Shown: positions 2,829 through 64,000, numbered from the stretch's first letter. The stretch is 64,000 bases of DNA from Caldifarciminota bacterium (GCA_025060695.1 JANXBH010000002.1:62001-126000), one strand, 5' to 3'. Notes: generated from the sequence alone by a model not told the origin. A program made the numbers and translations.

Positions 2829-2833
2829 GACTT

Positions 2834-2839
2834 TAAAAT
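2834..2839 (+). promoter_or_regulatory. -10 box for HU gene (leaderless)
   Basis: TAAAAT inside CTTTAAAATTTG, seven bases before ATG 2847; no Shine-Dalgarno. Basis: repeated motif position, inference. Confidence 0.6.
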
Positions 2840-2846
2840 TTGCACT

Positions 2847-3113
2847 ATGCGTAGATTAGAACTTGTAAGGAGAATATCTGCAAGAACAGGGATACCTCAA
2901 AAAGATGTATCTATCATAGTAGATGCACTTTTTGAAGAGATGAAGGCAGTATTACTAAGTAAAGAAGAGATAGAAATAAGGGGATTTGGAAGTTTCAGGA
3001 TAGTAAAGAGAAAGCCTAAGAAAGGCAGAGTTATTAAAACAGGAGAGGAGGTTATCATCCCTGAAAGATATGTAGTAAAATTTAAACCTTCTAAGTATCT
3101 AAAAATAAAATAG
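2847..3113 (+). CDS. HU/IHF-family DNA-binding protein
   Basis: 88 aa, the normal HU length. The N-terminal helices (ISARTGIPQKDVSIIVDAL), the EIEIRGFGSFRIVKRK strand region and the DNA-binding arm with the family's RNPxTG region changed to KTGEEVIIPERYVVKFKPSK identify it. It bends and compacts DNA. The gene has its own -10 box TAAAAT at 2834-2839, seven bases before the ATG, with no Shine-Dalgarno sequence, so the transcript is probably leaderless. It is followed by a tiny ribosomal-type gene with a good ribosome binding site. Confidence 0.94.
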   Translation: MRRLELVRRISARTGIPQKDVSIIVDALFEEMKAVLLSKEEIEIRGFGSFRIVKRKPKKGRVIKTGEEVIIPERYVVKFKPSKYLKIK

Positions 3114-3123
3114 GAGGTAAAAT

Positions 3124-3216
3124 ATGCCTTGTGGAAGAAAAAGAAAATTAAAAAAAATAAAGAGGCATAAATTCAAGAAGAGAAGAAAAAAGATGAGACA
3201 TAAAAAGAAGAAGTGA
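3124..3216 (+). CDS. 30-residue basic peptide, bS22/AURKAIP1-COX24 type ribosomal protein
   Basis: A 30-codon gene starting MPCGRKRKLKKIKRHKFKKR and ending MRHKKKK. Over 60 % of residues are Lys or Arg, with His residues in an RHK pattern. The layout MP(S/C)GxKR...KxxxHKxKKRxKKxRHKKK matches the tiny AURKAIP1/COX24-domain proteins of several bacteria, relatives of mitochondrial mS38 and of mycobacterial bS22, which sit on the small ribosomal subunit. A strong Shine-Dalgarno sequence (AGGAGGT at 3113-3119) precedes the ATG. The stop overlaps the GTG of the next gene (GTGA). Assignment rests on composition and motif layout only. Confidence 0.8.
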   Translation: MPCGRKRKLKKIKRHKFKKRRKKMRHKKKK

Positions 3217-4292
3217 AAATTTTTTTCATAGTAGGTGCAAGACCTAACTTTGTAAAATTAGCTCCAGTATATAGAAAATTTATAAACTATAGTAAATTTC
3301 AAATAAAAATTGTTCACACAGGACAACATTATGACTATGAATTAGATAAAGCATTTTTTGAGGACTTTGAAATACCATTTATTAACTATTATTTAAACGT
3401 AGGCTCAGATAGTCATGCAAAGCAAACTGCAAAAATTATGATAAAATTAGATGAACTATTTGATAAAGATAAACCAGATTGGATATTTGTATTTGGAGAC
3501 GTTAATTCCACAATAGCAGGTAGTTTAACTGCAATAAAGAAAAATATAAAAATAGCACATATAGAGTCCGGATTAAGAAGCTTTGACTTAGCTATGCCTG
3601 AAGAAATAAATAGAATACTAACTGATAGAATATCACACTTACACTTCGTTAGTGAACCATCTGGAGTTCAAAATCTTATAAACGAAGGAATAAGACTAAA
3701 TTCTATACACTTAGTAGGAAATACCATGATAGAGAGCTTAATAAGTGTGTTAGATAAAGTAAATAGTAGATTTAATAAACTATCTGAGATTTTTAATTTA
3801 GAAGAAAAAAGCTATGCAATATTGACACTTCATAGACCTTCAAATGTTGATAACTTAGATACTTTAAATTCAATAATAGAAAACATTAAAGAAATTTCAA
3901 GACATATAAAGATTATATTTCCTGCTCACCCAAGAACATATAACAAAATAAAGGATTTGGATTTAGCTAATATAAAATTAGTAAAGCCTATGAGATATTT
4001 GGACTTTGTTAGTTTGATGAAATTTTCACTATTTGTTATGACAGATTCTGGTGGTATTCAAGAAGAAACTACCTATTTAAAAATACCTTGTTTAACTTTA
4101 AGAGAAAACACTGAAAGACCAATTACAATTGAAAAAGGAACGAATGTATTAGTAGGAAGAGATAGGGAAAAATTACTTTACTATTTTGAAAAGATAATGA
4201 ACAATACATTTAAGACTGGAAAAGATATTGAATTATGGGATAGTGAAGTTTCTGAAAGAATTCTAAGAATATTTATTGCAGAGCATATCTAA
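3213..4292 (+). CDS. wecB: UDP-N-acetylglucosamine 2-epimerase (non-hydrolysing)
   Basis: 359 aa. Interconverts UDP-GlcNAc and UDP-ManNAc, feeding surface polysaccharide synthesis. Seen: the N-terminal signature GARPNFVKLAPVYR, HTGQHYDYEL, FVFGDVNST, HIESGLRSFD, MPEEINR, LTLHRPSNVDN and the UDP-binding DSGGIQEE, in the order of the WecB/MnaA family. Length is normal. The GTG start overlaps the TGA of the small ribosomal-type gene. The last 30 bases overlap the 3' end of the convergent nucleotidyltransferase gene. Confidence 0.95.
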   Translation: MKIFFIVGARPNFVKLAPVYRKFINYSKFQIKIVHTGQHYDYELDKAFFEDFEIPFINYYLNVGSDSHAKQTAKIMIKLDELFDKDKPDWIFVFGDVNSTIAGSLTAIKKNIKIAHIESGLRSFDLAMPEEINRILTDRISHLHFVSEPSGVQNLINEGIRLNSIHLVGNTMIESLISVLDKVNSRFNKLSEIFNLEEKSYAILTLHRPSNVDNLDTLNSIIENIKEISRHIKIIFPAHPRTYNKIKDLDLANIKLVKPMRYLDFVSLMKFSLFVMTDSGGIQEETTYLKIPCLTLRENTERPITIEKGTNVLVGRDREKLLYYFEKIMNNTFKTGKDIELWDSEVSERILRIFIAEHI

Positions 4293-4886: not shown

Positions 4887-4896
4887 AGGTAAATAA

Positions 4897-4902
4897 ATTT
4901 TA
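4897..4902 (-). promoter_or_regulatory. -10 box for nucleotidyltransferase gene
   Basis: On the minus strand this is TGTAAAATTTATTT, ten bases before ATG 4886. It supports that start over an in-frame GTG at 4916. Confidence 0.5.
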
Positions 4903-4918
4903 CAGCTGCTATTCACTT

Positions 4919-4924
4919 TAAAAT
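4919..4924 (+). promoter_or_regulatory. -10 box for sppA
   Basis: CACTTTAAAATTTTCAC directly before ATG 4931, gap six bases. It faces the opposite promoter across 16 bases. Confidence 0.65.
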
Positions 4925-4930
4925 TTTCAC

Positions 4931-7003
4931 ATGATTGAAATAGTGTTAAATTATTTTTTCTCAAGAAGTGTATCAGCTGTTGGTGGAACACAAAGCATAT
5001 TTAAAAATCCTGCTGGATTATCTGCATATTACTCCTCAATATTGTTTAGCTATGACCTAAGAGATAGTTCTTACTTTTATGGTTTAAATTTCAATGGAAT
5101 TGGTATTTTTAAAAGTAATAACTCGACCACTTTTGCAATATCAACCAAATATAGAGGACTTTATTTAGGTATGGACTATAATGACTTAGAGAGAAAATTA
5201 AAACCTTCACTTTTATACAGACCATTTAGTTTTATTTCATTTGGCTACTATAATGATAATTACTCAATTACATTAAGACCATTTTTAAAAAGTTTCTTAG
5301 AGGTTTCATTGGATGCTTTTTATAGAGATACATTTTATCTTAATAATACTTCAATTGGTGTAAATTACAATGGCATTTTAGCTTATGTTGGTTATGACTT
5401 TAATAGGAAAAATTATAACTTTGGTCTAAATTTTGCTTTTAATTCTTTACTAATTGGTGCAAGTAGTGATAGCAACGTTGTTTTTGAAATTCCATTTAGG
5501 AAGTTTAGAAGTCTTTTAAAAAGTAAAAAAGATATAAGAGTAGATGTTTATAGCTATATTGAGGATAAAGTTAGTCCAAATATGCTCCTTTCAAGTAATA
5601 GTGCGAACTTTTACGAATTTATTTCTTCTATAAAGAGTAAATTAAGGAAAGATGAGATAAATAGAATTATTCTTAATCTTTCCAAGTCAAACCTAAGCCT
5701 TTCTCAGATTGAGGAATTAAGAAATATTCTAAAGTCATCAAAGAAGGAAGTCATATGTTATGCTGACTTTTACGACTATAAGACTTACTATTTAGCAACT
5801 GCTTGTAAGAAAATAGTTATGAATCCAAATGGTTATATCAGCTTTATAGGACTTTATAACAAGAAAAGATATTTTAAGGAACTTTTTGATTCACTTGGTA
5901 TAGTGCCACAGGTTGTGTATTTTGAGGAGTATAAAAGTGCGGTAGAACAATATATTAGAAATGATGCAAGTGAATACGATAGAGAACAAAGAAAAAGAAT
6001 ATTAAGTGCAACCTATGAAAAAATAAAGGAGGATATTTTAGAGTTTAGAAAAGTTAATTTAGATAGCCTATTTAACTATGGAATTTTCGTAAATAGTGAA
6101 AGTGCCATGAAATTAAAGTTAATAGATACTATAGCATATGAGAATGAACTATTTGAAAAATATAAGATTTCAAAGTTGGAAAATTATATATCATTTAATT
6201 GGAAAAATCAGTTTAGAGATAAAATTGCACTTGTTTTCTTAGAAGGACCAATAGTTGACCAAGACCTATATTTTGTATTTGGCAGAACTACTTCTATTGG
6301 ATTAGGCGTAGTTAAATTGCTTGAAAGATTAAATAAAGATAAGTCAGTAAAGGCTGTTGTTATAAGAATAAATAGCCCTGGTGGTAGTGCTTTTGTAAGC
6401 GACTTGATTGCTAATGAAATAAAAAAACTTAGTAAAAATAAGTTAGTTATTGTTTCTATGTCAAGGGTTGCAGGAAGCGGTGGATACTATATTAGTGCAT
6501 ATGCGGATAAAATATTCGCTGATAATCTTACTATTACAGGTTCTATTGGTATATTTGGAGTATATTTAGCAACCGATGGATTTCTAAAGAAAAAATCTCA
6601 AATAAATGTTGATACTTTCAAAATATTTAAACACTCGGATGCATTTAGTGGCAGGGTTTTAGATAGTTTTGAACTAAGTGCTCTAAGGGAAGAAGTAAAA
6701 ATAGGATATGATAAATTTTTAAGTGTAGTTTCAGAGGGTAGAAAAATTCCCATAGATTCTTTAAAGAAAATAGCAAAAGGTCGTGTTTGGATTGGAAAGG
6801 ATGCAAAAAGCATAGGATTAGTTGATACAATAGGTGGAATACTTGATGCAATAAACTATGCAAGAAGTAAAGTGAAAAATGCGGAAATTGAAATATGGAC
6901 AAGAAAATTTAAAACAGATTTTAGTATATTCCCATTGGGTATGATTTTAAGACTATTTGAACATAAACTTTTATACTACAATGATTTAGAAAGTTTTGAA
7001 TAG
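4931..7003 (+). CDS. sppA: SppA-type S49 peptidase with an extra beta-barrel-like N-terminal region
   Basis: 690 aa. Residues ~280-660 form a double SppA unit, as in the long E. coli form: EEYKSAVEQYIRND places the catalytic Lys at 335, and SRVAGSGGYYIS the catalytic Ser at 516. INSPGGSAFVSD and ADNLTITGSIG flank them. Such enzymes degrade cleaved signal peptides and other membrane peptides. Residues ~18-190 are different: KNPAGLSAYYSS followed by alternating aromatic/Gly strands, resembling the start of PorV/UPF0164-like outer-membrane barrels. The start is fixed by a -10 box at 4919-4924. The N-terminus MIEIVLNYFFSRSVSA is short for an export signal. Confidence 0.88.
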   Translation: MIEIVLNYFFSRSVSAVGGTQSIFKNPAGLSAYYSSILFSYDLRDSSYFYGLNFNGIGIFKSNNSTTFAISTKYRGLYLGMDYNDLERKLKPSLLYRPFSFISFGYYNDNYSITLRPFLKSFLEVSLDAFYRDTFYLNNTSIGVNYNGILAYVGYDFNRKNYNFGLNFAFNSLLIGASSDSNVVFEIPFRKFRSLLKSKKDIRVDVYSYIEDKVSPNMLLSSNSANFYEFISSIKSKLRKDEINRIILNLSKSNLSLSQIEELRNILKSSKKEVICYADFYDYKTYYLATACKKIVMNPNGYISFIGLYNKKRYFKELFDSLGIVPQVVYFEEYKSAVEQYIRNDASEYDREQRKRILSATYEKIKEDILEFRKVNLDSLFNYGIFVNSESAMKLKLIDTIAYENELFEKYKISKLENYISFNWKNQFRDKIALVFLEGPIVDQDLYFVFGRTTSIGLGVVKLLERLNKDKSVKAVVIRINSPGGSAFVSDLIANEIKKLSKNKLVIVSMSRVAGSGGYYISAYADKIFADNLTITGSIGIFGVYLATDGFLKKKSQINVDTFKIFKHSDAFSGRVLDSFELSALREEVKIGYDKFLSVVSEGRKIPIDSLKKIAKGRVWIGKDAKSIGLVDTIGGILDAINYARSKVKNAEIEIWTRKFKTDFSIFPLGMILRLFEHKLLYYNDLESFE

Positions 7004-7007
7004 TTTT

Positions 7008-7349: not shown

Positions 7350-7350
7350 T

Positions 7351-7866: not shown

Positions 7867-7873
7867 ACTGAAA

Positions 7874-7879
7874 ATTTTA
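7874..7879 (-). promoter_or_regulatory. -10 box for S1-domain gene
   Basis: Minus-strand ACTTTAAAATTTTCAGT leads to ATG 7866 after seven bases; no ribosome binding site. Confidence 0.65.
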
Positions 7880-7892
7880 AAGTTAGTAAAAT

Positions 7893-8453: not shown

Positions 8454-8689
8454 GTAGGATATACAATTCTTGTATCTGTATCTCTTACCATACCTGTTGC
8501 ATAAACTTCTTCTATTATTCTTTTTATTTCTTCAAATGACTGAAACTCCGCTTTAGCAATGATATCTATATCACCAAAAACTGCATCCGCAAAAACTATA
8601 CCACTTATAGAACTAATAGATTCCACTGCTTTTTTCATATCTTCCCTAAAGAAGGATGTAAGTCTAATAAAAATATAAGCTTTCATCAT
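8450..8689 (-). CDS. Stand-alone Lrp/AsnC effector-binding (RAM) domain protein
   Basis: About 79 aa, matching only the dimeric alpha/beta-barrel ligand domain of Lrp/AsnC regulators, without the helix-turn-helix: AYIFIRLTSFFREDMKKAVE, then VFADAVFGDIDIIAKAEF. Such lone domains bind amino acids or other small effectors; targets are rarely known. A -10 box (8696-8701) six bases before ATG 8689 supports this start. It leads a two-gene unit with pyrE, which hints at a link to pyrimidine control, but this is speculation. Confidence 0.82.
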   Translation of the reverse strand: MMKAYIFIRLTSFFREDMKKAVESISSISGIVFADAVFGDIDIIAKAEFQSFEEIKRIIEEVYATGMVRDTDTRIVYPT

Positions 8690-8695
8690 ATACAA

Positions 8696-8701
8696 ATTTT
8701 A
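8696..8701 (-). promoter_or_regulatory. -10 box for AsnC-like/pyrE unit
   Basis: Minus-strand CCTTAAAATTTGTAT, gap six bases to ATG 8689. It lies next to the end of the acyl-CoA synthetase gene. Confidence 0.6.
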
Positions 8702-8704
8702 AGG

Positions 8705-10627
8705 TTAAGAAATAATGCTTTTAATTTCTTCTAAACACTCTGGATTTACAAGTGAAGATATATCTCCAAGCGGTTCATTTAAATATATACTCTTTATAAC
8801 CCTTCTCATGATTTTTGCATTTCTTGTTTTTGGCAAATCAGATACAAAATATACTTCCTTTAGTGCAAAAGCCTTTCCTATCTTTTCTATTACTAATTGC
8901 ATTATTTCTTTCTTTATATTCTCTACATCTCCCGAATTTTCTCTTAGAACTACAAACGCAACTGGGACTTGACCCTTTATCTCATCTGGAATACCAATTA
9001 CAGCACTTTCCTTTACTAATTTATACTCACTTATAATACTTTCAATTTCTGCAGGACCTATTCTTTTTCCTGCAATTTTTAACGTATCATCCGCTCTACC
9101 AAGAATATAATAAAATCCATCTTCATCAACATATGCCAAATCTCCATGATACCAAACATCCTTATATTTAGACCAATATGTTTCAATATATCTATCATTT
9201 TCCATATAAAATCCCCTTGTCATTCCTGGATTTAAATTCTTTACTACTAAGTATCCAATTTCATTTTTAACTGATATTCCATTTTCATCAAAAATGTCCG
9301 CATCTATACCAGGATTTACACTATTAAAACTCATAGGTTTTATACCCCTTATTATTACGCAACACAGTATACCTCCAGATATTTCAGTCCCACCTGAGTA
9401 GTTTATAATAGGAACTTTGTTTTTTCCTATGTTTTTTAAAGTCCATCTCCAAGGTTCTATATTCCAAGGCTCACCAGTTGAACCAATAATTCTTAAGCTT
9501 TTTAAACTATAGTTCTTTGGACTACTTTTTGACATAATACTTCTTATAATAGTTGGAGAAATACCTAAAATACTAATTTTATGTTTATCTACAAGTTCAA
9601 AGATTCTATTCTCATCTGGAAAATCAATAGCCCCATCGTACATAAACATCGTTGCACGATTTATTAGAGAACCGAATATTAACCAAGGTCCCATCATCCA
9701 ACCAATATCAGTAATCCAAGTTATAATATCGTTTTGTTTTATGTCAAATACGTGAAACATGTCTTGTGCGGACTTTATTGGAAATCCACCATGAACATGT
9801 AATGCTCCTTTTGGTCTTCCTGTCGTTCCTGATGTATATATAATCATTAAAGGTGTTTCACTATCAAAAGCTTTTGCTTGAAATGTTTCAACTTTACATA
9901 TTTCATCCCAATAGTAATCTCTTCCCTTTTGTAAACTAATATTAGTATTAAGGTTTTTATAAATTATAACTTTTTCTACAGAGGGACAATCCAAAAGTGC
10001 CTTATCAAGTATGTCTTTCATATATACTATTTTGTTTCTTCTTCTAAATCCATCCGCAGTTATTACTGCTTTTGCATTAGAAATATTTATTCTTGTCTTA
10101 ATTGGCTCTTCGCTAAATCCAGAAAATAGAGGGACAGCTATTGCACCTATCCTTGAAATTGAAAGTATACTAATTGCTACCTCAGGAATAAATGGCAAGT
10201 ATATTGCAACTCTATCACCTTCCTTTATGCCAAGTTCTAATAGTGCATTAGATAGTTTATTTACTTCCTTTAATAGTTCCTCATAAGTATATATTCTAAC
10301 TGTTCCACTCTCGCTTTCCGATATTAGGGCAATTTTTTTTAAGTCATTATAGTCAAGACAATTTTTGGAAATGTTTAGTTTTCCGCCTACGAAAAAACTT
10401 GGAAACTCTCTTGACTTTGATATATCAATAACTTTTTCAAATTCCTTTTCCCACACAAAATTTATATCTTCAAAGAACTTTCTCCAAAACCATTCATAGT
10501 CATATGCGGACTTTCTTATAAAGTCGTCATAACTTAAATTCTCCTCACTTAAGATTTTATATAAATTACTATTTTTTATTACTTCATCACTTGGATACCA
10601 CTCTATCTCGTAATTAAACCTATTCAA
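8705..10627 (-). CDS. AMP-forming acyl-CoA synthetase (acetyl-CoA/acetoacetyl-CoA synthetase type)
   Basis: 640 aa. Activates a short carboxylic acid to its CoA thioester via an acyl-AMP. Seen: the ACS-type N-terminal region with YDYEWFWRKFFEDINF, the P-loop MIIYTSGTTGRPKGALHVHG, WITDIGWMMGPW, INYSGGTEISGG, YHGDLAYVDEDGFYYILGR and the C-terminal Lys in KTRNAKIMRR. The order and length match acetyl- or propionyl-CoA synthetases, but the acid used cannot be fixed. The start is TTG, eight bases after a -10 box (10636-10641). It lies downstream of uppS with its own promoter. Confidence 0.88.
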   Translation of the reverse strand: MNRFNYEIEWYPSDEVIKNSNLYKILSEENLSYDDFIRKSAYDYEWFWRKFFEDINFVWEKEFEKVIDISKSREFPSFFVGGKLNISKNCLDYNDLKKIALISESESGTVRIYTYEELLKEVNKLSNALLELGIKEGDRVAIYLPFIPEVAISILSISRIGAIAVPLFSGFSEEPIKTRINISNAKAVITADGFRRRNKIVYMKDILDKALLDCPSVEKVIIYKNLNTNISLQKGRDYYWDEICKVETFQAKAFDSETPLMIIYTSGTTGRPKGALHVHGGFPIKSAQDMFHVFDIKQNDIITWITDIGWMMGPWLIFGSLINRATMFMYDGAIDFPDENRIFELVDKHKISILGISPTIIRSIMSKSSPKNYSLKSLRIIGSTGEPWNIEPWRWTLKNIGKNKVPIINYSGGTEISGGILCCVIIRGIKPMSFNSVNPGIDADIFDENGISVKNEIGYLVVKNLNPGMTRGFYMENDRYIETYWSKYKDVWYHGDLAYVDEDGFYYILGRADDTLKIAGKRIGPAEIESIISEYKLVKESAVIGIPDEIKGQVPVAFVVLRENSGDVENIKKEIMQLVIEKIGKAFALKEVYFVSDLPKTRNAKIMRRVIKSIYLNEPLGDISSLVNPECLEEIKSIIS

Positions 10628-10635
10628 GGTATAAA

Positions 10636-10641
10636 ATTTTA
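10636..10641 (-). promoter_or_regulatory. -10 box for acyl-CoA synthetase gene
   Basis: Minus-strand CCTTAAAATTTTATACC, gap eight bases to TTG 10627. It lies between uppS and this gene. Confidence 0.6.
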
Positions 10642-10650
10642 AGGCAAGTT

Positions 10651-12466: not shown

Positions 12467-12495
12467 TTGAAATTTTAAAGCTAATACTTTAAAAT
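12467..12495 (+). promoter_or_regulatory. Promoter of pyrH with -35 and -10
   Basis: TTGAAA at 12467-12472, 17-base spacer, TAAAAT at 12490-12495, then six bases to ATG 12502. The -35 overlaps the fbp -10 on the other strand. Confidence 0.65.
12472..12477 (-). promoter_or_regulatory. -10 box for fbp-uppS operon (leadered)
   Basis: Minus-strand GCTTTAAAATTTC, 25 bases before ATG 12446, with Shine-Dalgarno AAGGAGGT between (12452-12459). This is a key contrast to the leaderless genes. Confidence 0.65.
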
Positions 12496-12501
12496 TTTAA
12501 G

Positions 12502-13218: not shown

Positions 13219-13227
13219 AATACACTT

Positions 13228-13233
13228 TAAAAT
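13228..13233 (+). promoter_or_regulatory. -10 box for slipin-thyX-purF operon
   Basis: ACACTTTAAAATTTTGAA before ATG 13240, gap six bases; no ribosome binding site seen. Confidence 0.65.
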
Positions 13234-13239
13234 TTTGAA

Positions 13240-14839: not shown

Positions 14840-16136
14840 GAGAAAAGAGAACAATCATAGTATTTTAGAGATTACTAAAAAAGCTATTCTTTCGCTACAG
14901 CATAGAGGTCAAGAATCTGCAGGTATATGCATATTATTAAATAATAACGACCTTTTTGTTCATAAAGCAATAGGATTAACAAACCAAGTATTTTCTAATA
15001 TAAATAACTTAGATGGTAAAATCGCAATAGCTCATACAAGATATTCCACTTCAGGTTCTAAAGCAAGTATAAGAAATACACAGCCTATAACTTTTTACTA
15101 TAAAAATAAATGGCTTGCTATCGCACATAATGGAAATATACCTAATTTTGAAAAACTTAGAAAAGAACTTGAGGAAGAAGGAGCTATATTTTCTACCAAT
15201 TCTGATACAGAAGTTTTTTTACATTTTTATGTAAAGTATAAAGGGGATATGGCAAAGGTTTTAGAAAAAATTCCATATGCATATTCTATGATTATTCTTG
15301 AGGGAGATAAAATTATTGCATTTAGGGATAGATTTGGATATAGACCACTATTTTTAGGTATTAGCGACGAATTTTTTATATTTTCTTCTGAAGATAGTGC
15401 TTTAACTCAGTTTGAATTTATTAAGGAGATAGTTGAAATTAAACCTTCAGAAGTATATACTATTTGGAATAATGAGATAAAAAGGGAAGAATTTTCAAAA
15501 GCTGAAAAATATAGATTTTGTATATTTGAGCTTATTTACTTTTCAAGACCTGACAGTAAAATATTCAACTATCAAGTATATAGATTTAGAAAAGAGTGCG
15601 GGAAAAAATTAGCACTTTTAGAAGATAGAGAAGTTGATATAGTGGTTCCCGTCCCTGATTCGGGACTTGCAAGTGCTATTGGATACTCACAAACTTTAAA
15701 TAAGCCGCTTGAACTTGGCTTAATAAGAAATCACTACTCAGGAAGAAGTTTTATACAGCCTGACAATATATCAAGAAGGGAAACGGTAAGAAATAAACTA
15801 TTTCCAATTAAGGAAATAATAGAAAACAAAAAAATTGCACTTATTGACGACTCCATAGTAAGAGGCAATACCTCTAAGGAAATTATAAAACTTCTTAGAG
15901 AAAATGGGGCATTGGAAATACACTTAAGAATTGCATCACCACCTATTGTAAGTCCATGTTTATACGGAATAGATATGCCTACAAAAGAAGAGCTAATAGC
16001 AAATAGAATGAATTTAGAGGAACTTAGAAACTTTCTAAATGTAGATAGCATTAGATATTTACCGATTGAATATTTAAAGGAAGTTGTCTCAAAAGATAAG
16101 GAAAACTTTTGTTATGAATGTTTTTTAAAGCATTAG
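14814..16136 (+). CDS. purF: Amidophosphoribosyltransferase
   Basis: 440 aa. First step of purine synthesis: PRPP plus glutamine to phosphoribosylamine. The N-terminal nucleophile Cys follows the initiator Met directly (MCGIVGVYKR), so no propeptide is needed. The glutaminase half shows LSLQHRGQESAGI, HTRYSTSGS and AHNGNI; the PRTase half shows VVPVPDSGLASAIGY and the PRPP loop ALIDDSIVRGNTSKEI. Cys residues near the end (FCYECF) and in SPCLYGIDMP are as in iron-sulfur PurF forms. The start is fixed by the Cys2 requirement. Confidence 0.96.
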   Translation: MCGIVGVYKRKENNHSILEITKKAILSLQHRGQESAGICILLNNNDLFVHKAIGLTNQVFSNINNLDGKIAIAHTRYSTSGSKASIRNTQPITFYYKNKWLAIAHNGNIPNFEKLRKELEEEGAIFSTNSDTEVFLHFYVKYKGDMAKVLEKIPYAYSMIILEGDKIIAFRDRFGYRPLFLGISDEFFIFSSEDSALTQFEFIKEIVEIKPSEVYTIWNNEIKREEFSKAEKYRFCIFELIYFSRPDSKIFNYQVYRFRKECGKKLALLEDREVDIVVPVPDSGLASAIGYSQTLNKPLELGLIRNHYSGRSFIQPDNISRRETVRNKLFPIKEIIENKKIALIDDSIVRGNTSKEIIKLLRENGALEIHLRIASPPIVSPCLYGIDMPTKEELIANRMNLEELRNFLNVDSIRYLPIEYLKEVVSKDKENFCYECFLKH

Positions 16137-16139
16137 CCT

Positions 16140-16145
16140 TAAAAT
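16140..16145 (+). promoter_or_regulatory. -10 box for saccharopine-like gene and moxR
   Basis: CCTTAAAATTTTGAACTT, gap nine bases to ATG 16155, directly behind the purF stop. Confidence 0.6.
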
Positions 16146-16154
16146 TTTGAACTT

Positions 16155-19349: not shown

Positions 19350-19358
19350 AGCTTAAAA

Positions 19359-19364
19359 ATTTTA
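19359..19364 (-). promoter_or_regulatory. -10 box for cutA-trmI
   Basis: Minus-strand ACTTTAAAATTTTTAAGCT, gap nine bases to ATG 19349. Confidence 0.6.
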
Positions 19365-19384
19365 AAGTGTGAACTTTTGAACTT

Positions 19385-19390
19385 TATAAT
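19385..19390 (+). promoter_or_regulatory. -10 box for FadD-like gene
   Basis: A perfect TATAAT in ACTTTATAATTATAACT, gap seven bases to ATG 19398. It shows that the common TAAAAT motif occupies the -10 place. Confidence 0.68.
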
Positions 19391-19397
19391 TATAACT

Positions 19398-24143: not shown

Positions 24144-24164
24144 TTTTTTACCTCTTTTTTAAAA

Positions 24165-24170
24165 ATTTTA
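24165..24170 (-). promoter_or_regulatory. -10 box for alcohol dehydrogenase (leadered)
   Basis: Minus-strand ACTTTAAAATTTTTAA, 21 bases before ATG 24143, with an AAGAGGT ribosome binding site between. Confidence 0.62.
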
Positions 24171-24207
24171 AAGTTAAAACAAATTTCCTACCACTTTAGT
24201 CAGAAAT

Positions 24208-26561: not shown

Positions 26562-26568
26562 AATCATA

Positions 26569-26574
26569 ATTTTA
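26569..26574 (-). promoter_or_regulatory. -10 box for SDR-nfi-queE-archease operon
   Basis: Minus-strand CCTTAAAATTATGATT. Gap is one base to ATG 26567 but seven to ATG 26561, so the second ATG is preferred. Confidence 0.58.
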
Positions 26575-26578
26575 AGGC

Positions 26579-27638: not shown

Positions 27639-27645
27639 TAAATAA

Positions 27646-27651
27646 ATTTTA
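27646..27651 (-). promoter_or_regulatory. -10 box for DUF4230-like pair
   Basis: Minus-strand TTTACTTTAAAATTTATTTA, gap seven bases to ATG 27638; no ribosome binding site. Confidence 0.62.
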
Positions 27652-27692
27652 AAGTAAATAGTCGCTATAACTGCTTTAAACTTTGAAAAATT

Positions 27693-31993: not shown

Positions 31994-32000
31994 TACGAAA

Positions 32001-32006
32001 ATTTTA
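32001..32006 (-). promoter_or_regulatory. -10 box for nadB
   Basis: Minus-strand ATTTTAAAATTTTCGTA, gap seven bases to GTG 31993. It overlaps the stop codon of the HprK-like gene. Confidence 0.6.
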
Positions 32007-32675
32007 AAATAATCTTAATAAATCCTCGCAATTTGAATACATGGTATAATACAAGGGAATTTCTAATAACTTCTTAAAAGTCTCAAAATTATAGACTAAT
32101 GCCCTCGTATTGTATAAACTTTCAAATATAGCCCTTTTTTTATCTTCAATATCCATCTCAAAAAGCACAAGTTTTGAACCATATTTAAAGTTAATATAGA
32201 ACATCTTCTCAATCCTTGCACTATATGCAATTTTTGAAATATCCATAATCTTAAAAGCTGGTGAAAGGTAGCAAAATTCATCTTTTATAAATAATAAATC
32301 CTCAGCAATATAAGAATAACCAAAATCCAATGACTTTCTTAAAATTGTAGTTTTTCCACTTGAAGGAGGTCCTATAAATACAATAGCATTTTTATTATCC
32401 TTTGATATAGCAGATGCATGTAAAATTAAGTTTTCAGTAGAATTTATAGCATAAGCATTTCTCAAAAAATAAATCAGGTTTTGATATGCATTTTCTTTAT
32501 AGTTAACATATACTACTTTCCTATCCTCATGAAATCTTGAAATTCCGTTATAACCTTTAACAAACACTATTTCATCAATACTTTGTGATTTTATTTCATA
32601 AAACCTTAAAAAAGAATTAGTTAAATCAAAATAGGAGCAAATTTTTATATTCTTTGAAAATAGTCTAACTTTCAA
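32004..32675 (-). CDS. HPr kinase C-domain-like P-loop protein
   Basis: 223 aa. NLILHASAISKDN and the P-loop FIGPPSSGKTTILRKSL, then YIAEDLLFIKDEFCYLSPAF, reproduce the HPr kinase/phosphorylase catalytic core as found in stand-alone HprK-like proteins. Those often sit in peptide-modification loci. No HPr or PTS gene is seen, so the target is unlikely to be HPr. It starts with TTG; a -10 box could be 32685-32690 or 32698-32703, the latter leaving an unusual 22-base leader. Upstream of nadB. Confidence 0.7.
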   Translation of the reverse strand: MKVRLFSKNIKICSYFDLTNSFLRFYEIKSQSIDEIVFVKGYNGISRFHEDRKVVYVNYKENAYQNLIYFLRNAYAINSTENLILHASAISKDNKNAIVFIGPPSSGKTTILRKSLDFGYSYIAEDLLFIKDEFCYLSPAFKIMDISKIAYSARIEKMFYINFKYGSKLVLFEMDIEDKKRAIFESLYNTRALVYNFETFKKLLEIPLYYTMYSNCEDLLRLF

Positions 32676-32722: not shown

Positions 32723-32751
32723 TTGTTAGTTAAAACTCAATACTTTATAAT
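32723..32751 (+). promoter_or_regulatory. Full sigma-70 type promoter of M23-M28 operon
   Basis: TTGTTA at 32723-32728, 17-base spacer, perfect TATAAT at 32746-32751, then a leader with AGGAGGT (32768-32774) six bases before ATG 32781. Confidence 0.75.
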
Positions 32752-32780
32752 TTTCGGAAATCCTAACAGGAGGTCGCTGT

Positions 32781-37373: not shown

Positions 37374-38267
37374 TTAAAGTTTAAAGTTATTCCTAATATA
37401 ATTTTTAAAAATTTGTATATCTTCACTAATTACTCTTATACTTCCTGTCTTATGCCTAAATATAAGAGTAAAATTTTTAGCTAAGACATCATCAGCGAAG
37501 TCCATGGCAACTTGCATATTCTTCGAGTTTGAATTTACTATGATTGAAGTGTTTTCCTCATTCATGCTATTTCTTTCTATAAGTATATCTATATCTTCTT
37601 TTTCTTCAAAAAATCTTGAGTGAAATGTTGAAAGACTTTGATTACTAATTGTGATTTTCAAAGTTTTTCCTTTATAGTCTAAGTTTAAATATTCTATATT
37701 TTTAAGCTTTTCCTCATATATCTTTTCTTCTTCTTCTATTTCCTCTTGTGCTTTCTGGGTTAAACCCTTTGCCATTAATTCCTCATATAATCTTTCCACA
37801 AATTTAGAATAATCCAAATCTTGTGATAGTAAATTCAATATAATCCTTCCAATTTCTTCATTTGGTTCAATTCTCAATATAGTCTTTATTCTCTTTACGA
37901 GTAAACTATCCTTTTTTACTAAACCTTCAGATTCTGCCCTTGGAAAACCAAACCTATCTATAATATCTATTGCATGAAGTGCACTATTATTGATGTTAAT
38001 TTCTGGAAAAAATTTTTTTAACACTAAAATAATACTGGAATTTATGTTTAAGTCTTGATGATGGTCAAAATTATTTAAATTAGGGTCATAAGAATTCCCA
38101 ACATCTATGAGTATAATTCCACTGTCGTTTAGATATTCTGATGGAACATTTTGAGGATAAATATATTCTATAGTTGCATCTGGATATAAATACTTTAAAA
38201 TAGAAATTGCTAAGAAGTCATCTAAATGACGAGGTGGTAAATGACTAACTATTTTCTTTACTACCAT
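37374..38267 (-). CDS. MYG1-like (UPF0160) DHH-related protein
   Basis: 297 aa. Begins VSHLPPRHLDDFLAISILKY, then IILIDVGNSYDPNLNNFDHH, matching MYG1's GT-H-x(..)DE/DD metal site and the YDP..NFDHHQ motif, which is DHH-like. MYG1 proteins are 3'-5' RNA exonucleases in eukaryotes; bacterial ones are little studied. The first motif reads PPRHLDDF where MYG1 has THxGxFHxDE, so metal binding is plausible but modified. It shares base 38267 with the cmk-rsgA stop. Confidence 0.75.
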   Translation of the reverse strand: MVVKKIVSHLPPRHLDDFLAISILKYLYPDATIEYIYPQNVPSEYLNDSGIILIDVGNSYDPNLNNFDHHQDLNINSSIILVLKKFFPEININNSALHAIDIIDRFGFPRAESEGLVKKDSLLVKRIKTILRIEPNEEIGRIILNLLSQDLDYSKFVERLYEELMAKGLTQKAQEEIEEEEKIYEEKLKNIEYLNLDYKGKTLKITISNQSLSTFHSRFFEEKEDIDILIERNSMNEENTSIIVNSNSKNMQVAMDFADDVLAKNFTLIFRHKTGSIRVISEDIQIFKNYIRNNFKL

Positions 38268-42003: not shown

Positions 42004-42011
42004 GTAATAAA

Positions 42012-42028
42012 ATTTTAAACTTTAAAAT
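42012..42028. promoter_or_regulatory. Shared near-palindromic promoter of bamA and superoxide dismutase
   Basis: ATTTTA (42012-42017) is the minus-strand -10 for bamA (gap eight to TTG 42003), and TAAAAT (42023-42028) the plus-strand -10 for SOD (gap seven to TTG 42036). The 23 bases 42009-42031 read the same on both strands except at the centre. Confidence 0.65.
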
Positions 42029-42035
42029 TTTAGAC

Positions 42036-45632: not shown

Positions 45633-46278
45633 AAACATTGAAAAAATATTAAGTATTTTAAAAAAGGAATATAAAAATTGGGATGAAAATGTAGCAACGG
45701 TAAAACAAATGATAAAAGTACATAACTTTGAACCATTTAAAAGCCTAATTATGGCAATTATTTCAACTCAAACAAAAGATAGTATAACTTCCAAGGTGTC
45801 CGAAAAACTATTTCAAATTGCAAACAGTCCAAAAGAAATTTTAAAAATTCCTGATAAGGAATTAGAAAATACTTTAAAATCTGTTTCATTTTACAAAAGA
45901 AAAGCGAAGTATATAAAAGACACTTGTAGAATTATCATAGAAGAATACAAAAACAAAATACCCTCTAATTTTGACAAGCTAATAAAATTACCGGGTGTAG
46001 GAAGAAAAGTTGCAAATGTATTTCTATCGCATGTATATAAGAAAGATGTTATAGCTGTTGATACACATGTCCATAGAATATCAAATAGATTAAAATGGGT
46101 AAATACAAAAAATCCTAACCAAACCGAAAAAGAGTTATATAAAGTAGTGCCAAAGCGTCTATGGAGAGATATAAATTTATATCTTGTAGCATTTGGACAA
46201 GCAATATGTTCATATAAACCAAAGTGTAGCATTTGTCCTATATATGAACTTTGTCCCTATGAAAATAAAAGACTTTAA
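45610..46278 (+). CDS. nth: Endonuclease III
   Basis: About 222 aa. DNA glycosylase/AP lyase for oxidised pyrimidines. The helix-hairpin-helix LPGVGRKVANVFLSH contains the catalytic Lys, and VIAVDTHVHRISNRL the catalytic Asp. The iron-sulfur cysteines read C-x5-C-x2-C-x5-C (CSYKPKCSICPIYELC), one residue shorter in the first gap than E. coli Nth. I chose ATG 45610; a TTG at 45604 is in frame. It overlaps the CapA-like gene by about 23 bases. Confidence 0.95.
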   Translation: MGQSSQGKNIEKILSILKKEYKNWDENVATVKQMIKVHNFEPFKSLIMAIISTQTKDSITSKVSEKLFQIANSPKEILKIPDKELENTLKSVSFYKRKAKYIKDTCRIIIEEYKNKIPSNFDKLIKLPGVGRKVANVFLSHVYKKDVIAVDTHVHRISNRLKWVNTKNPNQTEKELYKVVPKRLWRDINLYLVAFGQAICSYKPKCSICPIYELCPYENKRL

Positions 46279-46281
46279 AAT
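46276..46281 (+). promoter_or_regulatory. -10 box for lptB
   Basis: GACTTTAAAATTTTTCTCTT, gap eight bases to TTG 46290. It overlaps the nth stop codon. Confidence 0.6.
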
Positions 46282-46289
46282 TTTTCTCT

Positions 46290-47012
46290 TTGGATATACT
46301 AAAAGCACAAGGACTCGTTAAAAAATATGGAAAGAGAACAGTAGTAAAAGGTATTAATATTGAAGTTTGTACAGGTGAAGTAGTAGCACTTCTTGGACCA
46401 AATGGTGCAGGAAAAACAACAACATTCTATATGATTATGGGAGCAATAAAACCAAACAAAGGGAAGGTATTTCTCGACGATAAAGAAATTACGAGACTTC
46501 CAATGTACAAAAGAGCAAGACTTGGTATAGGTTATTTACCACAAGAAGCATCTATTTTTAGAAATCTTAAAGTATGGGATAATGTATATAGCGTCCTTGA
46601 AATGAAGAAAATGAAAAAAATAGAAAGAATAGAAAAGACCAAAAAGCTTTTAGAAATGTTGAATGTTTTAAAAGTAAAAGATAATAAGGGTTACCAGCTT
46701 TCGGGTGGTGAAAGAAGAAGAGTTGAAATAGCAAGAGCACTTGCATTAGACCCGAAGTTCTTACTATTAGATGAACCTTTTACAGGAATTGACCCAAAAA
46801 CAAGAGAAGAAATACAAGATATCATAATTCAGTTAAAGAATATTGGAATTGGTATTTTAATTACAGACCATAACGTAAGGGAAACACTTGAAATTACCGA
46901 TAGGGCTTATATTATATACGATGGAGAGATTTTGATTGAGGGAACATCTAAGGAATTAATAGAAAATCCAAGAGTTAGAGAGCTATATATTGGTTGGAGA
47001 TTTAAAATTTAG
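46290..47012 (+). CDS. lptB: LPS export ABC transporter ATP-binding protein
   Basis: 240 aa. Drives lipopolysaccharide transport from the inner membrane. Walker A LLGPNGAGKTTTFYMIMG, LGIGYLPQEASIFRNLKVWD (an LptB hallmark), signature QLSGGERRRVEIARAL, Walker B FLLLDEPFTGIDP and switch ILITDHNVRETLEI. The protein starts with TTG eight bases after a -10 box (46276-46281). lptFG, lptA and lptC are not adjacent. The next gene encodes an unknown membrane protein. Confidence 0.95.
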   Translation: MDILKAQGLVKKYGKRTVVKGINIEVCTGEVVALLGPNGAGKTTTFYMIMGAIKPNKGKVFLDDKEITRLPMYKRARLGIGYLPQEASIFRNLKVWDNVYSVLEMKKMKKIERIEKTKKLLEMLNVLKVKDNKGYQLSGGERRRVEIARALALDPKFLLLDEPFTGIDPKTREEIQDIIIQLKNIGIGILITDHNVRETLEITDRAYIIYDGEILIEGTSKELIENPRVRELYIGWRFKI

Positions 47013-47554: not shown

Positions 47555-47587
47555 GAATAATAATAGCATAACTATACTTTAGTGCTT

Positions 47588-47593
47588 TAAAAT
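47588..47593 (+). promoter_or_regulatory. -10 box for ferredoxin gene
   Basis: GTGCTTTAAAATTTTATTACT, gap nine bases to ATG 47603; no ribosome binding site. Confidence 0.62.
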
Positions 47594-47602
47594 TTTATTA
47601 CT

Positions 47603-47896
47603 ATGGCATACGTAATAACACAACCCTGCATAGGAACGAAGAGTGGAGAGTGTGTCCAAGTTTGTCCAGTAGACGCTATCCATCCAAGAAGAGATGAAAA
47701 TTGGGATGAAACTACACAGCTATATATAGACCCAAATACCTGTATAGAGTGTGGAGCTTGTGCTTCAGTATGCCCAGTAAGTGCAATATACCAAGAAAAT
47801 GACGTTCCGGAAGAATGGAAACACTTCATAGAGAAAAATGCAGACTACTATAGAATGGATAAAGAAAGCTTTAAGGCTAAATGGAATTCACTATAA
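47603..47896 (+). CDS. Seven-iron type ferredoxin
   Basis: 97 aa. Two cluster motifs: first C-x7-C-x3-C-P (PCIGTKSGECVQVCPVDAIH), where the second Cys of a normal [4Fe-4S] site is Thr, as expected for a [3Fe-4S] cluster; second C-x2-C-x2-C-x3-C-P (CIECGACASVCPVSAI) for [4Fe-4S]. The C-terminal tail ends FKAKWNSL. Small electron carrier with unknown partner. A -10 box (47588-47593) lies nine bases before the ATG. A near copy of its last 8 codons lies at 48283-48306. Confidence 0.93.
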   Translation: MAYVITQPCIGTKSGECVQVCPVDAIHPRRDENWDETTQLYIDPNTCIECGACASVCPVSAIYQENDVPEEWKHFIEKNADYYRMDKESFKAKWNSL

Positions 47897-50413: not shown

Positions 50414-51308
50414 TAAATTTTAATGCTCTTTTAAAAAAGCTATATGCGTTATTGTAGAAGAAATTGTTTACATATTCATCAGGTAAATATTTTTTTAGCT
50501 CTAAGTATAGATTTTTTAAATCATTTGGCTTACTTAAATTTTCTATCTTATGCTCTTGTGAAATTCCATAAAAATCACTTCCTATACATAAGGTATTTGG
50601 GTATTTTTCAATGAGTTTCGAAACATACTTTGCTATGTCTGTCAGTGTTGCTTTTGAGAGAAATATATCCGCAAACGCTATACCAACGATACCATTTATC
50701 TTTGAAATTTCATAAATCATATCTTCACTAACATTTCTTTTTATATTAGAAATTTCTCTTATACCAGTATGCGATACGAAGATATTTTGTTTAAAGTTTT
50801 CTATTACATTGAAGAAAGTTCTATCGCTTGCATGCGAAAGGTCAATAGTCATATTTAAACTAATAGCTGTTTTGACTACATCATAGCCTAAATCAGTTAA
50901 TCCATAGTCATTTTTACTATTCCAATGAGGACAAATTAAATTATCCTTATTCCAAACAAGCCCTAAAACTTTTATTCCAAGTCTATTCATTATCCTAACT
51001 TCATAAGTACTTCTTACAAAATAAAGTCCCTCAACTGCTAATATTATATTTCCTTCATCAAACTCCTCTATACCTTTAATAATTTTCAAATTGAACTCTT
51101 TTTCTATTTCATATGCAATTTCAATACCTCTTAATGTATAAATTAGTGGCTCTTCCACGTCCAATATTTTATAAAAACCCCTAAAAGGGAATATAGCAAA
51201 TACGAATTTATCTATATTTAAGTTCTTATATTCATTCAGAATACTTACGTTATTAGGATTGTCAATAATATAGTAAAGTAAGTCCTGATGCAAATCAAAA
51301 ACTTTCAT
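50397..51308 (-). CDS. Membrane dipeptidase-like (peptidase M19)
   Basis: 303 aa. The start FDLHQDLLYYII supplies the HxD zinc ligands; GNIILAVEGLYFV the bridging Glu; TIDLSHASDRTFFNVIE and IFVSHTGIREISNIKRN the later His residues; and LCIGSDFYGIS the Asp. It acts on dipeptides in this family, here probably cytosolic as no signal is seen. It overlaps hslO by four bases and yjbQ by 17, making a three-gene unit. Confidence 0.9.
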   Translation of the reverse strand: MKVFDLHQDLLYYIIDNPNNVSILNEYKNLNIDKFVFAIFPFRGFYKILDVEEPLIYTLRGIEIAYEIEKEFNLKIIKGIEEFDEGNIILAVEGLYFVRSTYEVRIMNRLGIKVLGLVWNKDNLICPHWNSKNDYGLTDLGYDVVKTAISLNMTIDLSHASDRTFFNVIENFKQNIFVSHTGIREISNIKRNVSEDMIYEISKINGIVGIAFADIFLSKATLTDIAKYVSKLIEKYPNTLCIGSDFYGISQEHKIENLSKPNDLKNLYLELKKYLPDEYVNNFFYNNAYSFFKRALKFSDVKD

Positions 51309-52225: not shown

Positions 52226-52254
52226 TTGATAATATCTTACCTTTGCCTTAAAAT
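52226..52254 (+). promoter_or_regulatory. Promoter of prkA operon with -35 and -10
   Basis: TTGATA at 52226-52231, 17-base spacer, TAAAAT at 52249-52254. GGAGGG at 52267-52272 then serves ATG 52282. Confidence 0.68.
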
Positions 52255-52281
52255 TTAAAACTGAGTGGAGGGATGGAAAAA

Positions 52282-54494: not shown

Positions 54495-55074
54495 TCTTAC
54501 TATTGAATTAGAAAATGCAATGTATCAAAATAGTAAAAACTTCTTTTTAATTGAAAAAAATGATAGTATTGTAAATCTTTTTATAAAAAATTTCACAAGA
54601 ACATATAAAAAACCGTCTATACCTACCCTTATTGAAATCAGAGATTCTATATATAAACTAAACCAAAATCAGAAAACATATGCTAAACTAAGTGATACCC
54701 TTAAGATACAGGATATAGCAAAGTCTATTTCTAATCAAAAATTACACGATATTCATATAATTTACTTGCTTTCATACATAAGCTATAACTTCAATTTAAA
54801 TTTTGACGTTTATTGTGTAGTAAAGTATAGCAAGACTTTTAAAGATGCTATGCTGTTTGATTTAACATTACTTTATGGAAACTCAATGTATGGATGTTAT
54901 CCTCTGCTTGTAATTGATAATTATCATATTATTGGTCCGAGAAAAATTTATGTATTAAATAGAGTTTCTGATTTTGAGAGATTTCCTGATGAACTATTTT
55001 CGAAAGAAATTCCGGAGTTAAATGCTCAAATGAAAGGATATAAAGTAAAACTTATTAAGGGAAACAAAAATTAA
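54475..55074 (+). CDS. Hypothetical protein, third gene of the prkA operon
   Basis: 199 aa, not recognised. The N-terminus MMNLAFSLTIELENAM may be a very short export signal like others here. The middle is helical (IHIIYLLSYISYNFNLNF), followed by strands (DVYCVVKYSKT, CYPLLVIDNYHIIGP). Two Cys (VYCVV, YGCYP) are in the second half. It overlaps the lipoprotein gene by 20 bases. An outer or periplasmic partner of that lipoprotein is a guess from position. Confidence 0.55.
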   Translation: MMNLAFSLTIELENAMYQNSKNFFLIEKNDSIVNLFIKNFTRTYKKPSIPTLIEIRDSIYKLNQNQKTYAKLSDTLKIQDIAKSISNQKLHDIHIIYLLSYISYNFNLNFDVYCVVKYSKTFKDAMLFDLTLLYGNSMYGCYPLLVIDNYHIIGPRKIYVLNRVSDFERFPDELFSKEIPELNAQMKGYKVKLIKGNKN

Positions 55075-55077
55075 CTT

Positions 55078-55083
55078 TAAAAT
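55078..55083 (+). promoter_or_regulatory. -10 box for pncA-ligA-methyltransferase
   Basis: TTAACTTTAAAATTTTTAC, gap six bases to ATG 55090, overlapping the end of the prkA operon. Confidence 0.62.
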
Positions 55084-55089
55084 TTTTAC

Positions 55090-60363: not shown

Positions 60364-60372
60364 AGTTTGAAA

Positions 60373-60378
60373 ATTTTA
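60373..60378 (-). promoter_or_regulatory. -10 box for tal-surA
   Basis: Minus-strand ACACTTTAAAATTTTCAAACT, gap nine bases to ATG 60363. Confidence 0.62.
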
Positions 60379-60385
60379 AAGTGTT

Positions 60386-62905: not shown

Positions 62906-62912
62906 TTTCAAA

Positions 62913-62918
62913 ATTTTA
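62913..62918 (-). promoter_or_regulatory. -10 box for pseudokinase operon
   Basis: Minus-strand AACTTTAAAATTTTGAAA, gap seven bases to ATG 62905. An in-frame TTG at 62911 is only one base away and is rejected. Confidence 0.62.
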
Positions 62919-62930
62919 AAGTTTATGCTG

Positions 62931-62936
62931 TAAAAT
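62931..62936 (+). promoter_or_regulatory. -10 box for secreted CGPC protein
   Basis: GCTGTAAAATTTTAGTT, gap seven bases to ATG 62944. It is separated by 12 bases from the divergent box of the pseudokinase gene. Confidence 0.62.
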
Positions 62937-62943
62937 TTTAGTT

Positions 62944-64000
62944 ATGATTTACATTTTATTATCTAATATAATATTTTCTGAAAGTTTTGAAGGGGGAAGT
63001 TTTCCTCCAACTGGATGGGTAAAACTAGATCTTGGAACTTCAAATAGCGATGGATGGCAAAGAACTACTTCAAAAAAGAGAAGTGGTAACTATTCTGCAT
63101 ATGTAAGCTATCAGCCTTCTGCCAATACAAAAAACGAATGGCTTATAACACCTGCTATTAATCTATCAAATTATACAAAAGCATTTTTAATATTTTATGA
63201 AGATGAGAATTGGTGGTTCAGTTATGGAGGAGTACATAGGATAAGAATCTCTACAACTTCTCAAACTGATACTAATTCTTTCGTAATAGTAAGAGAAATG
63301 ACACCTGCAAATCATTCAATAACAGGTTTTTCAGGTGATCCTGTAATGGTTGATATTTCCTCCTTTGTGGGAAATTCTACTGTATATATAGCATTTCAAT
63401 ATCAGGGTAAAGATAGAGATGACTGGTTCATAGACGATGTTAGAGTTTTTGTGCCATATCATTATGATGTAAAACCTGTTAAGATTCTAAATCCAAAACC
63501 ATTTGTAGGTTCTAATATTATACTTCCAAATGTGCAAATAATGAATTATGGTGTAAATAATCTAACGAATATTCCAGTAAGACTTATAATAAGGGACTTC
63601 AATAATAATATAGTATATAATGAAATTAAATATGTTAACTCACTTAATTCCTTTGAGTATAGTAATGTTTCATTCCCTCAATTTACAGGTTTAAACAATA
63701 AAATCTATAAACTTGAAGTTATAACGGAACTTCAAAATGACCAAGACAGAAGTAATGATACAATAAGAATGAACGCATATACTTACATAACTTCACAAAA
63801 ACCACTATTTGAGAGATTTACTAACACCTCATGTGGTCCCTGTGGTCCTGCAGACAACTACATGCACCAGATATACCAAACCTATCTATATAATGTGGGA
63901 ATAGTGGTTTATCATACCTGGTGGCCTTCAAGTTCCGATCCAATGTATGTCTATAATACTTCTCAAAACCAGCAAAGGACCAATTACTATAGTGTAAATG
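62944..64000 (+). CDS. Secreted multi-domain protein with thioredoxin-like CGPC region (cut by window end)
   Basis: At least 352 codons, no stop before the window end. Residues ~12-175: a jelly-roll of choice-of-anchor J/MAM type (SESFEGGSFPPTGWVKLD, NEWLITPAINLS, FIDDVRVFVP). About 185-275: a CARDB-like strand domain (VQIMNYGVNNLTNIPV). From ~285: RFTNTSCGPCGPADNYM, a CxxC thioredoxin-like site as in Omp28-type proteins. The start MIYILLSNIIFS is short for a signal and is fixed by a -10 box at 62931-62936, seven bases upstream. It is divergent from the pseudokinase gene. Likely an exported or surface protein. Confidence 0.82.
   Translation, partial: MIYILLSNIIFSESFEGGSFPPTGWVKLDLGTSNSDGWQRTTSKKRSGNYSAYVSYQPSANTKNEWLITPAINLSNYTKAFLIFYEDENWWFSYGGVHRIRISTTSQTDTNSFVIVREMTPANHSITGFSGDPVMVDISSFVGNSTVYIAFQYQGKDRDDWFIDDVRVFVPYHYDVKPVKILNPKPFVGSNIILPNVQIMNYGVNNLTNIPVRLIIRDFNNNIVYNEIKYVNSLNSFEYSNVSFPQFTGLNNKIYKLEVITELQNDQDRSNDTIRMNAYTYITSQKPLFERFTNTSCGPCGPADNYMHQIYQTYLYNVGIVVYHTWWPSSSDPMYVYNTSQNQQRTNYYSVN

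Follow-up and report, generated by a model that had tools for sequence, protein, structure and literature searches.

A near-fixed box ahead of start codons and RNA genes, the putative main promoter of an uncultivated hot-spring bacterium

The window analysed here, a stretch of 64,000 nucleotides (nt) at G000:C22:62001-126000, comes from a Caldifarciminota bacterium. The lineage is an uncultivated one from hot springs and is known from metagenome-assembled genomes only. The source genome (G000) is bacterial and comprises 1.50 Mb in 77 contigs, and the window has a GC content of 29.6%. The subject of the analysis is a short box with the consensus RCTTTAAAATTTt, which lies directly ahead of many start codons. 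The window contains 29 matches to its exact 12-mer, CTTTAAAATTTT, at no more than one mismatch, compared with 9.4 expected, and none of 100 shuffles reaches 29. There are 12 exact copies, 11 of them immediately 5' of a start codon and one (24162-24173) ahead of a leader that contains a ribosome binding site.

On the plus strand, boxes separated from the start codon by a short gap, counted from the end of TAAAAT, are found at 2830-2842 (ACTTTAAAATTTG, gap of 7 nt to the ATG at 2847), 12486-12498 (ACTTTAAAATTTT, 6 nt, ATG 12502), 13224-13236 (ACTTTAAAATTTT, 6 nt, ATG 13240), 46272-46284 (ACTTTAAAATTTT, 8 nt, TTG 46290) and 55074-55086 (ACTTTAAAATTTT, 6 nt, ATG 55090). The box at 16136-16148 (GCCTTAAAATTTT, 9 nt, ATG 16155) abuts the end of the upstream gene, and a weak box, GATTTAAAATTTA, lies at 46999-47011 (9 nt, GTG 47018). 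The minus strand carries boxes at 7871-7883 (ACTTTAAAATTTT, 7 nt, ATG 7866), 8693-8705 (ACCTTAAAATTTG, 6 nt, ATG 8689), 10633-10645 (GCCTTAAAATTTT, 8 nt, TTG 10627), 26566-26578 (GCCTTAAAATTAT, 7 nt, ATG 26561), 31998-32010 (ATTTTAAAATTTT, 7 nt, GTG 31993), 37375-37387 (ACTTTAAACTTTA, 9 nt, ATG 37368), 50414-50426 (GCATTAAAATTTA, 6 nt, ATG 50410) and 60370-60382 (ACTTTAAAATTTT, 9 nt, ATG 60363).

Other boxes stand back to back. The minus-strand box GCTGTAAAATTTA at 4894-4906 (10 nt, ATG 4886) is divergent from ACTTTAAAATTTT at 4915-4927 on the plus strand, which precedes the ATG at 4931 of an SppA-like peptidase by 6 nt; the two starts are 44 bp apart. A distance of 48 bp separates the starts served by ACTTTAAAATTTT at 19356-19368 (minus, 9 nt, ATG 19349) and by the TATAAT variant ACTTTATAATTAT at 19381-19393 (plus, 7 nt, ATG 19398, acyl-CoA ligase). 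It is 54 bp for ACTTTAAAATTTA at 27643-27655 (minus, 7 nt, ATG 27638) and GCTTTAAACTTTG at 27673-27685 (plus, 10 nt, ATG 27693). The box of bamA, AGTTTAAAATTTT at 42009-42021 (minus, 8 nt, TTG 42003), even overlaps the opposite box, ACTTTAAAATTTT at 42019-42031 (plus, 7 nt, TTG 42036), with starts 32 bp apart. Near the window end, ACTTTAAAATTTT at 62910-62922 (minus, 7 nt, ATG 62905) is accompanied by the plus-strand box of an opposite, uncalled gene, GCTGTAAAATTTT at 62927-62939, whose start probably lies at about 62944.

Four boxes are followed by a longer leader, and all four of these genes have a Shine-Dalgarno sequence, as reported in the first-pass annotation, from which three of the gene names are taken. 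These are fbp (GCTTTAAAATTTC, 12469-12481, minus, gap of 25 nt to ATG 12446), an alcohol dehydrogenase (ACTTTAAAATTTT, 24162-24174, minus, 21 nt, ATG 24143), an M23 peptidase (ACTTTATAATTTT, 32742-32754, plus, 29 nt, ATG 32781) and prkA (GCCTTAAAATTTA, 52245-52257, plus, 27 nt, ATG 52282), the identity of the last being confirmed. ACTTTATAATTTT is, with ACTTTATAATTAT, one of two TATAAT variants that had been noted, and both were found again. A further box, GCTTTAAAATTTT at 47584-47596 (plus, 9 nt, ATG 47603), precedes a ferredoxin-like gene of 97 amino acids (47603-47896, plus strand), which the gene caller had skipped and which was exposed by its perfect box. Altogether, 24 called genes of the window have the box 5-11 nt ahead of their start, to which the ferredoxin gene and probably the start near the window end are added; the previous count of about 20 heads was thus slightly low.

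Distances and gene contexts were tallied over 464 kb of the genome, namely the window and 400 kb more (L003-L022), in which open frames and codon preference yielded 425 genes. Boxes were scored with an iterated weight matrix. A reversed matrix is unfair as a control because the box is nearly palindromic, and six column-scrambled matrices were therefore used. By this matrix, 155 of the 425 genes (36%) have the box, compared with 0-3 for the scrambled matrices. In the whole 1.5-Mb genome, CTTTAAAATTTT occurs 198 times and the backwards pattern 22 times. The consensus runs from R at -16 and C at -15 through t at -4 and holds 14.7 bits. T-12, A-11, A-9, T-7 and T-6 are each conserved at about 98% and A-10 at 95%, so that the core TANNNT is present, with about 98% at each of its three fixed positions. 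The upstream extension consists of C at -15 (85%) and T at -14 (83%); the TG of extended -10 (TGn) promoters was looked for at -15/-14, where C/T is found instead. As a -10, the box is not of the generic sigma-70 type, and its conserved unit spans the purine at -16 to the T at -4.

The position of the box relative to genes is equally sharp. Of the 66 exact copies, 48 are followed by a candidate start codon 5-11 nt after TAAAAT, with a mode of 7, although the proportion of positions of this kind predicts only 0.43. Eight of the remaining copies lie ahead of tRNAs, five farther upstream of a gene and five elsewhere, at least one of the latter being the start of the small ferredoxin gene absent from the gene calls. 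Strong matches adjoin a start in 149 of 263 cases, compared with 1.7 expected. A second mode of the gap occurs at 9-10 nt, with pyrimidines ahead of the ATG. None of the 155 genes with a start-adjacent box has a Shine-Dalgarno sequence (cut-off of at least 5 bases), and the two signals are mutually exclusive. When the distances are split by Shine-Dalgarno, the peak appears only among box genes that lack it, which bears out the short-gap, leaderless-type starts with this motif described in the first-pass annotation. An archaeal TATA/BRE promoter was considered and rejected. The archaeal TATA box lies about 26 nt ahead of the RNA start or of a leaderless start codon, whereas the box described here is 5-11 nt from the start, and the 16S gene and sigma factors of the genome are bacterial.

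The occurrence of the box depends on gene context. It is present in 85 of 114 genes with a divergent upstream neighbour and in 41 of 73 co-directional genes located 6-40 nt 3' of another gene, but in only 14 of 164 genes abutting or overlapping the preceding one. Within this last group, a clear Shine-Dalgarno sequence is found in only 33, and most genes have neither signal, which suggests translational coupling. The first-pass view that most first genes are leaderless is supported for divergently oriented genes, as far as starts predicted from the DNA allow.

The box lies about as far from the start as a ribosome binding site would, and the exclusion of Shine-Dalgarno sequences would also suit an AT-rich substitute for them, acting as a translation-initiation signal in the mRNA. 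Several observations speak against this explanation. The box clusters at the heads of transcription units and is rare ahead of abutting or overlapping genes, it is also found 18-71 nt upstream of genes having a Shine-Dalgarno sequence, and the 3' end of the 16S rRNA carries a normal anti-Shine-Dalgarno. Moreover, the same box precedes tRNA, tmRNA and rRNA genes, where there is no start codon. This largely refutes a role in ribosome binding, which retains a minimal probability.

Across the 464 kb, each of the 13 tRNA transcription heads carries the box 9-17 nt ahead of the mature tRNA, whose end mostly lies 9-14 nt after TAAAAT. Most tRNA heads in a second genome of the same genus and in a sister genus have it likewise. 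The 16S rRNA gene is preceded by CCTTTAAAATTTT at 65 nt upstream, and the box lies 26-33 nt ahead of the tmRNA gene in four of the family's genomes. The box is therefore read as a promoter rather than as a ribosome signal, since these genes are not translated; judged by sequence, the tRNA heads decide that it is a transcription signal. In the second genome of the genus, one tRNA begins 7 nt after TAAAAT. Assuming that the box is its promoter, transcription has to start within about 8 nt, which in turn supports leaderless or near-leaderless mRNAs at gaps of 5-11 nt.

A side observation concerns the maturation of these tRNAs. A search of the four family members (G000-G003) for RNase P RNA (RF00010) found none, although the sister family has it. 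Each of the four instead encodes a homologue of the HARP-type protein-only RNase P (TIGR03875; L156-L159). Together with pre-tRNA leaders of a few nt, as predicted from the box, this suggests protein-only tRNA maturation. In both genomes of the genus (L158, L159), the HARP frame is interrupted at nine consecutive A about 40 codons in, on the minus strand, and the N-terminal part, MKIV[IL]DTSVLTNPYS..., lies in a different frame from the remainder. Since the two species are diverged, the shared nine-A run points to transcriptional slippage or frameshifting rather than to an assembly error.

The box is the only conserved element upstream of these genes. Alignments anchored on it hold no -35 information, and hexamers close to TTGACA show no excess at a spacing of 16-18 over other spacings, so that the two boxes of a classical sigma-70 promoter are not seen. 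Three TTG hexamers that had been proposed as -35 elements in the first-pass annotation look like chance by the same comparison. A promoter of only about 13 bp would allow divergent genes to share very little DNA. Where both genes are boxed, the start codons are mostly 32-48 bp apart. In four divergent pairs the distance is 20-22 bp and the boxes overlap, in one case as a perfect palindrome, CTTTAAAATTTTAAAG. These pairs comprise real genes. One includes a methyltransferase beside a sigma-70-family factor, and another an acyl-CoA dehydrogenase beside a protein with TonB-dependent receptor plug and carboxypeptidase-like domains.

Related genomes show how far the box extends. The family (f1) is represented by G000-G003, of which G000 and G001 belong to the genus described here; locus L001 belongs to G001 and does not represent an independent third species. 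The exact 12-mer occurs 198 and 315 times in this genus and 17 and 19 times in the sister genus, and elsewhere in the class it does not exceed its reversed control to a similar degree. The sister genus, with 51% GC, has its own start-adjacent version, TTTAAAATTT or TTAAACTTT, with mixed TAAAAT/TAAACT; by its own model 102 of 219 genes carry it, compared with 4-17 for scrambled matrices. In orthologous promoters of the two genera, the box is 90-100% identical at most positions and the flanks are near random. In the neighbouring sister family (G008, 53% GC), 61 of 111 genes carry TTCnnCYTTADAATA, compared with 2-8 for scrambled matrices, and four other families of the class, one of them with 29.8% GC, have Shine-Dalgarno sequences and virtually no box. 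Leaderless -10 promoters thus seem to characterise the order, and the long fixed box seems to characterise the family, being sharpest in this genus. The G008 box (L096-L103) is itself unusually extended on the upstream side of its -10; among the 61 sites, 92% have C at -18 and 74% have C at -15.

The comparison also bears on AT-rich composition and chance in a genome of 30% GC. Intergenic DNA is indeed AT-rich here. However, a class relative of matching GC content (G012, 29.8%) has the box in 0 of 108 genes, and it is present in the family member with 51% GC. AT-richness would not produce the C at -15 or the R at -16, and neither the reversed pattern nor the scrambled matrices come near the counts of the box. 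The probability of this explanation is negligible.

The specificity of the box, which exceeds that of an ordinary -10 and departs from TATAAT, and the two further sigma-70-family factors in the genome could instead point to a large regulon of an alternative sigma factor or a transcription factor. Against this, the box heads about 75% of the genes with a divergent neighbour, as well as the 16S rRNA operon, the tmRNA gene and every tRNA head examined. In addition, its distance from gene starts matches that expected of a -10, and no motif other than Shine-Dalgarno is enriched directly ahead of starts. The probability of a specialised regulon is therefore regarded as slim, and recognition by the housekeeping sigma factor is preferred.

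In this factor (L026), the position corresponding to Thr440 of E. coli in region 2.4 is Ile in G000 and Met in G001, and it is Thr or Ser in 27 other class members with that region aligned. The -35-reading residues of region 4.2 (R584, E585, R588, Q589) are unchanged in this genus, and the housekeeping sigma factor of the family has one extra residue shortly after them. According to a citation in PMC2613000, T440I suppresses a T-to-C change at -12 in E. coli. A link between T440I/M and an altered -12 base was rejected, as -12 is still T in the box. The motif predates the change at residue 440, because the sister genus has both the box and Thr440; for the same two reasons, the substitution is a lead and not an explanation. 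A tentative scenario is that the order possesses a single-box grammar of its own. The box could have been fixed in the family and residue 440 of sigma changed in the genus, with the -35-less box then serving all RNA classes and permitting divergent intergenic regions of 20-48 bp.

The directly observed properties of the box are its sequence, its position, the exclusion of Shine-Dalgarno sequences, its use at non-coding RNA genes, the missing -35 and its conservation in relatives. On this basis, RCTTTAAAATTTt is very probably the main housekeeping promoter box, a -35-independent extended -10 of a sigma-70-type polymerase that gives leaderless or near-leaderless mRNAs. The first-pass interpretation as a -10 box is supported in view of RNA-gene heads and spacing, although not as a generic sigma-70 element. 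From the properties listed, we infer that the box is recognised by the housekeeping sigma factor, where exactly RNA starts, and that translation is leaderless. RNA polymerase with a sigma-70-type factor would read the box without a -35 and start RNA about 6-8 nt downstream of TAAAAT. At a gap of 5-11 nt, the leader would be absent or at most about 4 nt long, and translation would proceed without Shine-Dalgarno. A box further upstream would give a conventional leader, often with Shine-Dalgarno, and the same box would initiate tRNA, tmRNA and rRNA transcripts.

Some points weigh against this interpretation. Start assignment was partly motif-guided, limited to a window around the coding-potential start. 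The sites of RNA initiation are taken from the distance to the box. TATAAT shows no peak ahead of starts in the 464 kb, and the box departs from this usual hexamer. Only 13 of 37 matches at longer gaps, the four named in the first-pass annotation among them, belong to a gene with Shine-Dalgarno and 24 have none recognised, so that of the two-way grammar in the first-pass annotation, the short gap without Shine-Dalgarno stands, and the long gap with it is only a trend. Finally, the gap of 5-11 nt implies that some mRNAs may have leaders of 1-4 nt. Very short leaders of 1-5 nt could even be the rule instead of true leaderlessness, given gaps of up to 11 nt, the second mode at 9-10 nt with its pyrimidines and the distances of 9-14 nt at most mature tRNA ends. 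As a rule this is rather unlikely, as the mode of 6-7 nt sets the start codon at the usual +1/+2, and the tRNA that begins 7 nt after TAAAAT forces a start within about 8 nt.

Leaderless genes that carry a -10 signal are already known and are of the same kind as those described here. In bacteria, such genes have a TA-like -10 signal about 12 bp ahead of the start (Zheng et al. 2011, PMC3160421). Both systems share a -10-like box where an RNA start at the start codon predicts it, a separate Shine-Dalgarno class and clade-wide use. The published signal has the form TANNNT or TATAAT, at times preceded by TG where the GC content of the genome is low, whereas the present one is a near-invariant RCTTTAAAATTTt of 12-13 bp with C-15 and a T at each position from -6 to -4, in which the third base of the hexamer is A, not T. 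In Deinococcus-Thermus, about a third of genes have an ORF-adjacent -10, experimentally shown to be RpoD-read promoters without -35 (PMC12340547). The proportion of genes and the lack of a classical -35 are alike. The Deinococcus motif is TANNNT with mostly three fixed positions, in contrast to the long fixed box at 30% and 51% GC, which also serves tRNA, tmRNA and rRNA and forms back-to-back promoters. As in TGn promoters, bases just upstream of the -10 would stand in for a -35, but these are C-15 and T-14. In bidirectional promoters, the symmetry of the -10 permits initiation both ways from overlapping boxes, with optimum start sites 18 bp apart (PMC10268837, PMC12825309). Start sites over a shared -10 of this type lie 7-25 bp apart, and the four pairs with opposed overlapping boxes are candidates for such an arrangement; in these pairs a protein gene lies on either side, at 20-22 bp between start codons, and back-to-back pairs at 32-48 bp are routine. 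A literature search for leaderless promoters in metagenome-assembled genomes gave no match. New features are the extended near-fixed sequence (C-15 and TTT after the hexamer), the use at rRNA, tRNA and tmRNA genes, the compactness, the gradation across one order, and the replacement of Thr440 by Ile or Met in the housekeeping sigma factor of this genus.

The lineage thus offers a clear case, recognised from genomes only, of leaderless transcription in uncultivated thermophiles, in which most unit starts could be read to within a few bases. In practice, the box pinpoints start codons and exposed a missed small gene. It also illustrates how compact bacterial promoters can be. A single order provides a graded series for the co-evolution of -10 and sigma factor, which comprises TTCnnCYTTADAATA, mixed TAAAAT/TAAACT, the fixed CTTTAAAATTTT and outgroups dominated by Shine-Dalgarno sequences.

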